From a virus, in the IMG/VR virus record IMGVR_UViG_3300031841_000100, positions 1 to 24,402 of that record: DNA of 24,402 nt. One strand, given 5' to 3'. Every line of letters starts with the position of its first letter. Position 1 is the first letter of the stretch. The position numbers were made by a program, and so were the translations under genes. This document shows, one piece after another, positions 17,417 to 22,843 of this stretch. The notes under the pieces are model-generated. The model searched no databases, was not told where the DNA came from, and saw only the letters and a list, made by a program, of their open reading frames with translations.

Positions 17417-17629
17417 TTATTTCTCCTTTTTGTTGAGCATATTATTTATAAATAAGACAACGGCTCGTTGTCCCTCTCTAAATGCAGTATCGTGACTATC
17501 TCCTTGAACAAAAGTAGTTGAATTAAAACTGCATCTCTTTTTAAGATCTTCAAGCACTAATTGACCGCTCTCCGATCCAAAAGTCGTTTTGTAGTTTATT
17601 GATAATTGTTTTATATCTTTCTCATTCAC
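17417..17629 (-). CDS. Bbp19-like small protein (70 aa)
   Basis: Sequence features F-x-S-x-x-G-x-x-VLEDLKKRC, then FNSTTFVQGDSHDTAFREGQ and VVLFINNML. The G-QLVLEDL, DT-x-F-x-EGxR and VV-x-xI pattern is that of the Bbp19 family, small proteins encoded between portal and scaffold in many podoviruses; their function is not established. It overlaps the portal gene end by 8 nt and ends 2 nt before the scaffold start. Co-translation with portal is likely. Confidence 0.75.
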   Translation of the reverse strand: MNEKDIKQLSINYKTTFGSESGQLVLEDLKKRCSFNSTTFVQGDSHDTAFREGQRAVVLFINNMLNKKEK

Positions 17630-19226
17630 TTAATAACCCCGCTTTCAAAGCTGGAGCGATTTTACCAGCACTCTCAGCTACTTGTTGAGCTTGCTGTAAT
17701 TCAGCTTGCTCGATTTGTTGTTGCTGTTTTTGCTGCTGGATTTCTTGTACTTGTGCCTTAGATCTCATCACTTTAGCTGGTAAGCCTAGTACATCTTTAA
17801 TATGATCTACTAAACCATCAACATCTAAGTAATCAAATACTGGAGCTACATTTTGTAATGAGCCAAATATTTCTATACCTCTCATCACAGATGAAAGCTC
17901 TTGTGTCTTTTGAGCTTTAGCTAATGGAGATACATATTCAATTTCTACATCTTGATCTGCTACAGTTTCTGGTGGTTGTGGAAACTTACCATTTTTAAAT
18001 AACAGATTAAAAGATCTAGTAATTAATGGCTGCAATAATTCAGATTGTAATCTGCCTAATACTGGACCAAGTAATCTCATCTTTTCTTCAGTACGCTGCA
18101 TAACTTCTGTAGCTGTCATATTCACACCCTGGATCATCATTAACTGATCGACAAAAAAGTTTTCTCTAATAGCTTTTCTTCTTTGTTCTTCCATTTGTAA
18201 TCCTATTGGATTATTAGCTCCAATGTTTAATGGTTCAATTCTTTCTCTAGTACCAGATCTGTAGAAGTTTAATCCTCCAGGTACAGTTCTTACTGGTAAA
18301 ACAAAACCATCATCTGGAACCATTAATGGTGGGTCGATTTGTTTTTGTGCAGCTTTGATTGTAGTTTTGCACATTGTATTTAACATCTTAACATCTGGCA
18401 GCGCATTCATTGCTGGAGATCTTCCATAAATTTCATTTGATGAAGATTTTAAATATCTAGGAACCACATACGGAAATTCTCTAAATCCACTTTCTCTTAA
18501 AATTACACCACTTTCTTCGTGGACATGACAAGATACAAAATCCATATTCTTATTGCTTTCATATCCCATCGGCATATCTGATTGAGATACAGAATGAATA
18601 ATAGTTGTTTCATCGTATGGAGCATCTTGAATTTTTCTAACTAAAGATTGTGGTAGCTGTGCATCTGGATACATAGCTGGTATATTTTTATTTTTAATTT
18701 GAAATCTTCTTATCAGGCAATCCACCATGCCTTTTTCATTTTCAGTAATGTATATTTCTGAAATATGAATAGTTTTAAATCTTAAATCATCTTTAACATC
18801 ATCTGTGATAAACATTGCAGATGTACCAAATGCTAGCAGCTCATGGTATAATTCAAAAATTTCTTGTTGAAAATTAGATCTTTGAAACACTTGCTGCATA
18901 ATATTTGCGCAGCTCTCTAACCATTCTTTTGCCTCGTCATCCTGGTTCATCATCTCAGATCTGTATTTCAAAACAAACCATGGAGATATAGTATTTGTGA
19001 GCATTCCATTTAAAGATGCAGATAATAACTCGAGAGCATGAGTTGCAGTACCATCATAAATCTGGTCATGCCTTTTGTCTCCTCTGGTTCTCTTTAATGT
19101 AATGTTAGATTTTCTTGGTAAAAAATAATTAGCAACATCTTGCCAATGGTCTTCCCATGTAGATCTTTGCGCTCTTAGCGTTTGATACTTATCCAGTATC
19201 GCTTTGGCTTTTTTGTCTATTGCCAT
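17622..19226 (-). CDS. Portal protein / head-tail connector (534 aa)
   Basis: T7-type portal (Head-tail connector family). It begins MAIDKKAKAILDKYQTLRAQ, followed by WEDHWQDVANYFLPRKSN, THALELLSASLNGMLTNTIS and PWFVL, the characteristic N-terminal block. The middle has REFPYVVPRYLKSSSNEIYG and GRSPAMNALPDVKMLN. The NMTATEVMQRTEEKMRLLG helix near residue 370 is also diagnostic. The end is Gln-rich (residues 490-520, about half Gln, Ala and Glu) and probably a flexible barrel extension. Twelve copies would form the DNA channel at one vertex, docking terminase and the gp11-like ring. The start follows an AGGAGG sequence that lies inside the final codons of the preceding gene. Confidence 0.95.
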   Translation of the reverse strand: MAIDKKAKAILDKYQTLRAQRSTWEDHWQDVANYFLPRKSNITLKRTRGDKRHDQIYDGTATHALELLSASLNGMLTNTISPWFVLKYRSEMMNQDDEAKEWLESCANIMQQVFQRSNFQQEIFELYHELLAFGTSAMFITDDVKDDLRFKTIHISEIYITENEKGMVDCLIRRFQIKNKNIPAMYPDAQLPQSLVRKIQDAPYDETTIIHSVSQSDMPMGYESNKNMDFVSCHVHEESGVILRESGFREFPYVVPRYLKSSSNEIYGRSPAMNALPDVKMLNTMCKTTIKAAQKQIDPPLMVPDDGFVLPVRTVPGGLNFYRSGTRERIEPLNIGANNPIGLQMEEQRRKAIRENFFVDQLMMIQGVNMTATEVMQRTEEKMRLLGPVLGRLQSELLQPLITRSFNLLFKNGKFPQPPETVADQDVEIEYVSPLAKAQKTQELSSVMRGIEIFGSLQNVAPVFDYLDVDGLVDHIKDVLGLPAKVMRSKAQVQEIQQQKQQQQIEQAELQQAQQVAESAGKIAPALKAGLLSE

Positions 19227-19672: not shown

Positions 19673-20950
19673 TTAGTCTCCGTGTATTGAATATTCGTTT
19701 AATGAATAAGTTTGTTTTGGTTTATTTTTTTCTGGTAAATCATTTAAAGATATTGCCATGTACCTCACGCTATCTACTGCATGACTAGACCAATCCTTAA
19801 CTGGTTTATTCGAAAACATTTTAATTTTTTCGTTATACTTTCGATGGTATTGTCTAAGCGCATCTATTAATGGTTTTGTGTTTTCTATATCGAACCAACA
19901 TCTAGGTAAAACCATCTTTGTACTGTGGATCCCATCCTCTAAAGATAACTTAGGTAAAATTCTAAACCTAACTCCCAACTGATAAGCTACATCTAATCTG
20001 GTCTTACCCGTTGAAAATTCTGTGACTTCTATATCGTGTGGAGCGTAATGCTCTCCGTAAATATAATCTTTATCTTTTATAACCTGGACATAGTGAGGAA
20101 GACCCTCTCTCCTATTCTCATAGTAATCAATTACTAAAATAGAGTTTCCTAACTTTTGAAAAAAAACAATTGCTGTACTATCATCCACTCCTAGATCCCA
20201 GGCGGTATGAACCTCCAGGCTAGGATCATAAGCTATTCTAGTTAATTGTTTCTTCTCTTCTAAATTTTTAATTATATCTCCAAATATAGATCCCTCGATA
20301 TTTGCAATCCAATCGCATTCAAATTCTTGCCGATACTTCGTCTCTCCCATTTGAGCTTTGGCTGCATCTAACTCTTCCTGGTCTATAATATTAGTTTCAC
20401 TTGCCTTAGCTGTATAAGTCATCCACTTATCATCGCTTAAAGCATATTGATATAATTCGTAAAATAAATTTCCCATCCCAGCGGGAGTTCCTATAAAATA
20501 ACAAAACCCCTTACGATCCGATAAGGCTGGTCTAATTATTTCATTCCACAGCTTAGGTTCTATTTGCGCTGTCTCATCTATGCAAACTCCGTCAAGAAAT
20601 AATCCTCTTAAACTATCCCCCGCCTCACTAGATAATAAAGTTATTCTAGCACCATTTGGCAAATCGCATCTAAGCTCTGTCTCATTAAAAGTTGTGCCTG
20701 GTATTGGTCCAGCAAACATTTTTAAATAATCAAATGCAATAGCTTTTGCTTGCTTATAAGTTGGAGCTATATAAGCGTACCTAGGATTTTTCAAATTATT
20801 CTGTAATGCTGCACGGATTAGGTGGTTTAGCATACAGACAGTTTTGCCAAATCTTCTATGACAACTTAACACCGCAAATCTATATTGAGATAGCTGATTG
20901 TGCAGCTCCGCTTGTAAGGGTCGTGGTGTATAGGGTATTTCAACTTTCAT
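19673..20950 (-). CDS. terL: Terminase large subunit (425 aa)
   Basis: DNA-packaging motor and nuclease. The N-terminal ATPase has a Walker A-type loop CHRRFGKT (residues 30-37), a Walker B LFLDGVCIDE (117-126) with E126 catalytic, and a GTPAG coupling motif (154-158). The C-terminal RNase H-like nuclease has D252 in WDLGVDDSTA, a HYAPHD centre (301-306) and DWSSHAVDSVRY (386-397) with the last acidic residue at D393. Length is slightly short but typical for compact podovirus terminases. The start overlaps the stop of the 31-aa membrane peptide (TAATG). It is separated from the small-subunit-like gene by about 1.4 kb of small genes. Confidence 0.97.
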   Translation of the reverse strand: MKVEIPYTPRPLQAELHNQLSQYRFAVLSCHRRFGKTVCMLNHLIRAALQNNLKNPRYAYIAPTYKQAKAIAFDYLKMFAGPIPGTTFNETELRCDLPNGARITLLSSEAGDSLRGLFLDGVCIDETAQIEPKLWNEIIRPALSDRKGFCYFIGTPAGMGNLFYELYQYALSDDKWMTYTAKASETNIIDQEELDAAKAQMGETKYRQEFECDWIANIEGSIFGDIIKNLEEKKQLTRIAYDPSLEVHTAWDLGVDDSTAIVFFQKLGNSILVIDYYENRREGLPHYVQVIKDKDYIYGEHYAPHDIEVTEFSTGKTRLDVAYQLGVRFRILPKLSLEDGIHSTKMVLPRCWFDIENTKPLIDALRQYHRKYNEKIKMFSNKPVKDWSSHAVDSVRYMAISLNDLPEKNKPKQTYSLNEYSIHGD

Positions 20951-21245: not shown

Positions 21246-21514
21246 GCTGACTTCTTATTATTTTTTACAAAATTTCTAGCTGCGGCTACTGAGCTAAATC
21301 CCCACTTCTTGAGAGCCAAAGCTTTTCTTGTAGGCTTACCTTTTTCATCTTTCATTGCGCCTTTCATCCCAGCAAACCTGGCAGCAAAGCTAACTCTTCG
21401 TGGGTTCTTGCCAGCCTTAACTGGTGGTTTTAAATTAGATCCATCTCTGTTTTTAAAGAATTGTCTCCCCCGCTCTGTTAATCCTCCAGTTTTGCTTTTG
21501 TGTTCTTTTCTCAT
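21242..21514 (-). CDS. Basic phage protein of the KTGGLTxxGR / PTRKALALKKW type (90 aa)
   Basis: Lys/Arg-rich protein with KTGGLTERGRQFFKN (8-22), PRRVSFAARFAGMKG (38-52), KDEKGKPTRKALALKKW (55-71). These blocks recur in small proteins of marine phages (I recall the name DUF6321 for the family, to be verified). No enzymatic motif is visible; the many basic residues suggest binding to nucleic acid, perhaps during packaging since terL lies 0.3 kb downstream. The ATG at 21514 is preceded by a CA repeat rather than a Shine-Dalgarno. Function unknown. Confidence 0.8.
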   Translation of the reverse strand: MRKEHKSKTGGLTERGRQFFKNRDGSNLKPPVKAGKNPRRVSFAARFAGMKGAMKDEKGKPTRKALALKKWGFSSVAAARNFVKNNKKSA

Positions 21515-21516
21515 AA

Positions 21517-21535
21517 GTGTGTGTGTATGTGTGTG
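21517..21535 (-). repeat. CA-dinucleotide tract immediately upstream of a start codon
   Basis: The minus strand reads CACACACATACACACAC, ending two bases before the ATG of the 90-aa gene; one T interrupts the repeat. It replaces any obvious Shine-Dalgarno. It is the only dinucleotide run of this length noticed in the window. It could keep the start site unstructured or bind a factor. Confidence 0.8.
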
Positions 21536-21558
21536 AAATTCCCAAGTTATATATTTTT

Positions 21559-21601
21559 AAAAAATGCGGCTATAATTTCGGGTGTACCCCCTTTGTTCCG
21601 C
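21559..21601 (-). terminator. Possible intrinsic terminator before the head/packaging genes
   Basis: On the minus strand GCGG (21601-21598) can pair with CCGC (21569-21566), enclosing an inner GGGT/ACCC hairpin, and is followed by ATTTTTT (21565-21559). The outer stem is only 4 bp, so the case is weak. If real it would separate the early-type genes upstream from the terminase operon. Confidence 0.3.
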
Positions 21602-21694
21602 GTGATTTTATTCTTTTTATATGCAGATCCGCGAGTTGATCCTCTTATAATCCTCTTGATGATTGATTTGTCTTTTGTTTATTGATGTTGTCGC

Positions 21695-21709
21695 TAGGTA
21701 TCATACCTA
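21695..21709. promoter_or_regulatory. 15-bp palindrome TAGGTAT-N-ATACCTA
   Basis: Perfect 7-bp arms with one central base. On the minus strand the centre reads TATGAT, a near-consensus -10 hexamer, though no good -35 was found. This layout fits an operator covering a promoter. A phage HTH protein encoded upstream, for example at 23504-24103, could be the binder, but that is speculation. Confidence 0.5.
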
Positions 21710-21716
21710 CCACCCA

Positions 21717-21727
21717 GGTTCCGAACC
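21717..21727. promoter_or_regulatory. 11-bp palindrome GGTTC-N-GAACC
   Basis: Perfect 5-bp arms with one central base, only 7 bp from the TAGGTAT palindrome. A second GAACC at 21745-21749 could pair alternatively with its left arm. Possible operator half of a paired site, or an RNA element. Confidence 0.4.
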
Positions 21728-21755
21728 CCATAACGCGCACCCGAGAACCATGGAT

Positions 21756-21786
21756 GACACCACCAAGAACGAACTTTAGTAGTGTC
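21756..21786 (-). promoter_or_regulatory. Hairpin with 9-bp stem in the GC-rich island
   Basis: Minus-strand RNA GACACUACU (21786-21778) pairs with GGUGGUGUC (21764-21756) over 9 bp with two G-U pairs and a 13-nt loop. It begins 16 nt after the stop codon of the 173-aa gene. There is no U-run, so it is more likely a structured element than a terminator. Confidence 0.45.
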
Positions 21787-21801
21787 AACCAGGATTAAGA
21801 T

Positions 21802-22323
21802 CTAGTTTAAATTATTTTTAACAAGGCAATGAGCATATAACTTGTTAGCATAACCCGCCAACTTGCCATTGATCTCATCTTGTTTAGCTTTATGAGCTGC
21901 TCTCTCTTCATCGCTCCAAGCTGTTGAATTAACAAATTCAATTTTTACATTCTCCATTGATTTGCTAAATGCTTTAATTCTGCAAAGCTGTTTCTTTTGT
22001 AAAGTGTTGAGCTGATTGTAATCAACTTTTGTCAACCAGTTTTCTACATCTTTAGCAGCATCACATTTGCTTAATCCAAAATAATCAACATAACCATTGC
22101 TGTTATCTTGAGTTAAAACAAACGCAGCTCCATAAGTAGAAGTTTTAACAGCACACCACTTATTGTTTTTTGGATTTAAAGTTTGATAACAAAATCTGTC
22201 GCCTTTGTTATTTGTCTCAATCCAATAAGCTCTTTTAGTTTTGAGCTTGAAACCCCAAGGATAGTTATCAACGACAACTGCTGTCTCGAAGTTTTTTGCG
22301 TTGTAGATGTTTTTTTTTGTCAT
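21802..22323 (-). CDS. Phage protein of unknown function (173 aa)
   Basis: Begins MTKKNIYNAKNFETAVVVDN. The N-terminal half is rich in aromatic and basic residues, with GFKLKTKRAYWIETNNKGDR and RFCYQTLNPKNNKWCAVKTS (residues 24-62). This KLxTKxxYWxET and QTLNPKxNKW pattern recalls small proteins of unknown role in other marine phages. The C-terminal half is helical (KDVENWLTKVDYNQLNTLQK). No enzyme motif is visible. The ATG lacks a Shine-Dalgarno, and a palindrome containing TTGACA lies 21 nt upstream, so the mRNA may start very near the ATG. It is flanked by non-coding DNA on both sides, unlike most genes here. Confidence 0.75.
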   Translation of the reverse strand: MTKKNIYNAKNFETAVVVDNYPWGFKLKTKRAYWIETNNKGDRFCYQTLNPKNNKWCAVKTSTYGAAFVLTQDNSNGYVDYFGLSKCDAAKDVENWLTKVDYNQLNTLQKKQLCRIKAFSKSMENVKIEFVNSTAWSDEERAAHKAKQDEINGKLAGYANKLYAHCLVKNNLN

Positions 22324-22390: not shown

Positions 22391-22843
22391 TTATCTTTTT
22401 TCTTTATTATACCCGACATCTCCAGGTAGCTTTTGAATAGATGTACTTGCCAACGGATCCACAATGTTTTTAATTTCTTTAATATCATTTTTAGGTTCTC
22501 CCCAACTTATAATTAAATGATTATCTATTTTTTGTTGCACTTGTGATTTGTCTCCAAATGTTGTGCTTGCGAGTTTTGTAGCAAGCCATCTGATATGGCT
22601 CCACTTCTCTCTTAAAAAATGTGTTTCTTGTGGTGTCTTTGGGATCTGCATATCTTCTGCAATCTTATCCAACAAAGTCCAAACCCCAGTTTGTCTAGCT
22701 GCCATGACTTTCTCTCTTAACTTCTCATCGTTTCTGCAATGCTTATAAACTGTAGAAACATCTGGCATCTCCTTATCTTTGCAAATAGTTGAGAGCGGTT
22801 CTCCAAGCTCTAATCTTTCGCATATCTTTTCAATTTGATCCAT
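22391..22843 (-). CDS. Terminase small subunit-like HTH protein (150 aa)
   Basis: Residues 1-65 resemble the DNA-binding part of Sf6-type small terminases: EKICERLELGEPLSTICKDK, then MPDVSTVYKHC and EKLREKVMAARQTGVWTLLD. The S-T-V-Y helix is the recognition helix of an HTH, followed by the long helices that form the oligomer ring. Residues 80-105 are THFLREKWSHIRWLATKLAS. The C-terminus is polar. It would recognise the packaging site and dock TerL, but it sits about 1.4 kb upstream of terL with five small genes or elements between. It overlaps the HGG protein by 34 nt. Confidence 0.75.
   Translation of the reverse strand: MDQIEKICERLELGEPLSTICKDKEMPDVSTVYKHCRNDEKLREKVMAARQTGVWTLLDKIAEDMQIPKTPQETHFLREKWSHIRWLATKLASTTFGDKSQVQQKIDNHLIISWGEPKNDIKEIKNIVDPLASTSIQKLPGDVGYNKEKR

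Follow-up and report, generated by a model that had tools for sequence, protein, structure and literature searches.

A conserved bipartite motif between terS and terL as the likely DNA-packaging site of uncultivated relatives of Pelagibacter phage HTVC010P

What is the role of the GC-rich, palindrome-bearing DNA that lies between the two terminase genes of a marine phage? The window (the whole stretch of DNA analysed, a virus record of 24.4 kb) represents part of the genome of an uncultivated marine phage akin to Pelagibacter phage HTVC010P, whose relatives rank among the most abundant viruses of the ocean. The closest cultivated phages are of the HTVC010P type, and since their TerL is only 58-65% identical to that of the window, the phage studied here is a separate, uncultivated relative. 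The gene order on the minus strand is terS, a 173-aa ORF, the island, a 90-aa DUF6321 protein, a 63-aa ORF, terL, and the portal gene, of which the following matter most for the argument:

22391-22843, minus strand: terS, Sf6-like small terminase of 150 aa (PF20901, phrog_1482; Sf6 gene 1 protein in the PDB)
21802-22323, minus strand: ORF of 173 aa between terS and the island, family unassigned (no Pfam match and no convincing PHROG match)
19673-20950, minus strand: terL, large terminase of 425 aa (phrog_2, PF03237)
17622-19226, minus strand: portal (PF12236, T7-like head-tail connector family)

A preliminary description placed the island just downstream of terS and upstream of terL; it does lie between the two, but the 173-aa ORF separates it from terS. 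Other lineages have nothing or different DNA in the place of this ORF, so that 21802-22323 may be a spot where insertions occur.

What had been claimed of the island's composition holds. 21690-21800 has a G+C content of 0.504, compared with 0.348 for the window as a whole, a richness equalled by 0.37% of the window's 111-bp stretches, but the part 21645-21690 is not rich, and the whole 157-bp interval has a G+C content of 0.43. Both palindromes that had been pointed out are present:

21695-21709, no strand: 15-bp palindrome TAGGTATCATACCTA, candidate protein-binding site, recurring in part of the lineages
21717-21727, no strand: 11-bp palindrome GGTTCCGAACC, which shares bases with the end of the anchor box (below), not kept as a palindrome in relatives

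Of the dinucleotide shuffles of the interval, 2.1% contain at least two palindromes with arms of 5, and 1.3% a palindrome with an arm of 7. Both the island and the two palindromes are thus real, and modestly unusual. The 9-bp-stem hairpin fares worse: it is probably the imperfect repeat TGACACTACTA/TGGTGGTGTCA on the minus strand, which includes G-T pairs, and the perfect stems reach at most 6 bp, a length equalled by 33% of shuffles. Folding is slightly better than in shuffles, with z-scores of -2.5 for the minus strand and -1.8 for the plus strand.

If the island has a function, what do related phages keep of it? Searches of IMG/VR by TerL, by TerS, and by pattern gave several hundred loci, and a profile found the core of the island in 278 of them, i.e., 91 distinct sequences from 34 lineages (<85% identity). 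The conserved part is non-coding and consists, on the minus strand, of AAGTTS^GTTYTT (the caret marks the putative cut), about 12 variable bases, and a longer GC-rich box. A further conserved element lies nearby:

21765-21776, minus strand: cut box AAGTTCGTTCTT, conserved and exactly matched in the window; the homologous base is where four contigs of relatives begin
21721-21753, minus strand: GC-rich anchor box CCATGGTTCTCGGGTGCGCGTTATGGGGTTCGG (consensus CCAYGSTCCTCGCaCRCGCRTTATGGAGTTCG), the most conserved part of the island and a candidate recognition element for TerS/TerL
21615-21625, minus strand: conserved TGCATATAAAA element, kept across lineages although its flanks vary

The features stressed in the preliminary description mostly differ from what is conserved: only the nearest relatives have the 11-bp palindrome and the hairpin. 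The 15-bp palindrome (TAGGTA..TACCTA) reappears in some of the lineages, at two alternative distances from the cut, about +61 or +115 to +126. It may bind TerS, a regulator of the phage, or a host factor, and may belong to a control region. Two further candidates were discarded. A small ORF that begins with the conserved ATGGAGTTC meets early stops at differing points and lacks its ATG in one locus (L008). The long imperfect inverted repeat TGACACTACTA...TGGTGGTGTCA, centred on the cut, is striking in the window, but in the 34 lineages taken together the symmetry at the cut does not exceed that at other positions, and we have therefore left this dyad out of the evidence.

The core sits between terS and terL, in many loci at most about 110 bp from the end of terS, and farther in loci with inserted extra genes, the window among them. 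Of 16 records searched over their full length (up to 39.9 kb), 13 had a single copy of it and three a more diverged core or none, and the anchor box occurs once in the window. A single copy near the terminase genes is a feature expected of a cos site. Cellular genomes gave six scattered matches of the pattern in 257 Gb, in unrelated organisms, versus 63 in viral contigs, and a DNA search of a phage database with the island returned short chance matches only. The small structured RNA once suggested for the island found no support in these relatives. Over 27 aligned lineages, the consensus structure has 3 pairs (-0.49 kcal/mol) and no compensatory or double changes, although conserved pairing with compensatory changes would be expected of such an RNA; Rfam and tRNA scans gave sub-threshold matches only, none of them on the conserved core. 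Nor does any observation speak for a replication origin, another role that the preliminary description had considered.

A further indication of function comes from the places where contigs end. Four IMG/VR contigs from four datasets start precisely at the base after AAGTTS:

L017: TATTTCATATAC
L058: GTTCTTGTTAAC
L068: GTTTTTCGTAGC
L074: GTTCTTTGTAGC

In all four, the start is 25 nt from the CTC of the anchor box. L068 and L074 share a lineage, from which L017 and L058 are distant, as they are from each other, which makes three lineages in total. After strict removal of near-identical contigs, 3 of 49 starts over about 1.6 kb fall on this base (P = 4.4e-6 for the named base, and 0.007 if any base of the 1.6 kb is allowed); since the choice of the base followed inspection of the data, 0.007 is the fairer figure for the starts alone. 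A single, separate observation comes from the opposite side: L348, a terS-side contig of another lineage, ends with ...TTGGATCTC, 1-3 nt short of the point homologous to the cut in its relatives; a search for further right-end contigs in its lineage found none. The tally is four left ends against one right end, taken from assembled contigs rather than from reads or virion DNA. Contigs can break for reasons other than genome ends. Together, these ends suggest a physical, fixed end of the virion DNA.

Could the coincidence have a more trivial cause? The island might be a regulatory region or a small structured RNA, and the contigs might end there by chance or by an assembly artefact at the junction of conserved and variable DNA. 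The sequence immediately upstream of the cut does vary across lineages, the 15-bp palindrome is operator-like and recurrent, and the minus strand folds somewhat better than shuffles. However, the breaks fall within the conserved box, six bases past its beginning, in diverged lineages; covariation is absent and all Rfam families stay under threshold; and the promoter-like block of the terL operon is a separate one, at 21516-21591. We therefore regard this explanation as very unlikely. The block itself is strongly conserved and non-coding (GGGTACACCC, GCCGCATTTTTTAAAAATATATAA, TGGGA, CACACACA on the minus strand), precedes the DUF6321-terL operon, with a counterpart in HTVC034P, and looks like the promoter and leader of that operon.

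A number of arguments are thus in favour of the hypothesis that the island is the DNA-packaging site of this phage group, one of the roles that the preliminary description had suggested, from its position: the motif is conserved in place between terS and terL, and contigs end at one base of it. We consider it likely that TerS recognises this site and TerL cuts it, leaving a fixed virion end, and that it is of the cos rather than the pac type. The Sf6-like TerS would recognise the anchor box, and perhaps also the palindrome, and would place TerL on concatemeric DNA; TerL would then cut AAGTTS^GTTYTT at a point 25 nt ahead of the anchor-box CTC. This would correspond to a cut between 21771 and 21770 of the window, with the terL-side genome end starting at 21770. 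The virion map would have the terL and structural side at one end (the start) and the early-gene and terS side at the other. Binding and cutting by the terminase, the direction of packaging, and the cos type are what we infer from the sequence comparison. The overhang of the virion ends is perhaps 0-2 nt long; contigs themselves show no overhangs, and the gap of 1-3 nt at L348 gives no more than a hint of its length.

The type of ends deserves closer attention. Contigs assembled from virion DNA should break at cos ends, whereas reads bridging the ends would be left by terminal repeats or headful permutation, and unique, cos-like ends therefore fit best; contigs that cross the site would be expected from intracellular concatemers. 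The site could instead be the start of a long direct terminal repeat with T7-like ends, as might be expected from a portal of the T7-like connector family and from the 125-bp terminal repeats reported for Skadi phages (PMC10504331). Such a repeat should bridge both ends in assemblies and carry the right end past the left one, yet the sole right end, that of L348, stops just before it, and we find this reading most improbable.

A pac site with a precise first cut, from which TerL starts a headful series with one end fixed and the other variable, is a more serious competitor. The TerS is Sf6-like, of a family known for headful packaging, and left ends exceed right ends 4 to 1; these two facts keep a pac site alive, though we prefer a cos site. 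The authors of the Skadi study took the repeats of these related phages as a sign of pac headful packaging (PMC10504331). Headful DNA is permuted, so that assemblies should pass through the site, and L348 stops at the same place from the opposite side. The site lies outside terS, at least 19 bp past the terS match in all relatives measured and, in the window, 621 bp past the terS stop; the contig ends coincide to the base. In P22- and Sf6-type phages, pac lies within terS and the first cuts spread over many bases. We hold a pac site of this kind to be unlikely. Against a cos-type packaging site itself stand the single right end versus four left ends and the HTVC010P-type isolates, which have no recognisable core (a search for the motif gave no match).

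If a motif marks the terminus, linear genomes could be oriented by it, true contig ends could be separated from breaks, and the packaging mode would become testable from existing virome reads. The site is of an ordinary kind, and we found no earlier description of it for this phage group in the openly licensed literature, nor mapped genome ends for this group of pelagiphages. More specifically, a cos site placed between terS and terL, leaving blunt ends or a 1-2 nt overhang and used with an Sf6-type TerS in a marine phage group, would be a packaging mode that to our knowledge is not described for the Sf6-type terminase family; judged from sequence, this full combination seems to us unlikely.

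How does the island compare with known systems? HTVC010P-type Pelagibacter phages share with the window a related TerL and a similar promoter-like block upstream of terL, but a search for the core motif in them found none, and terminal repeats are reported for Skadi among them (PMC10504331). The deposited HTVC010P record (L092, L093; KC465898) is opened between its terS-like gene and terL, which is either a mapped end or the authors' choice. For Vibrio phage OVC8, the terminase phylogeny and a tandem sequence lying upstream of terS have led to the proposal of a cos site (PMC4802629); among the listed matches of its TerL, that of HTVC010P is the closest, at 32%. Like P22/Sf6-type pac sites, the island is near an Sf6-like terS; unlike them, it is outside the gene. 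In lambda, cos is upstream of terS and the R-type TerS boxes of cosB are repeated, whereas the island is between terS and terL, and 21300-22200 contains no repeat family with at least three copies; such repeated boxes are a trait of the lambda subtype only. With lambda, HK97, and other cos sites the island shares a single copy beside the terminase genes and a putative cut box with a separate candidate recognition box; the fixed ends suggested by the contig ends would be a further likeness.
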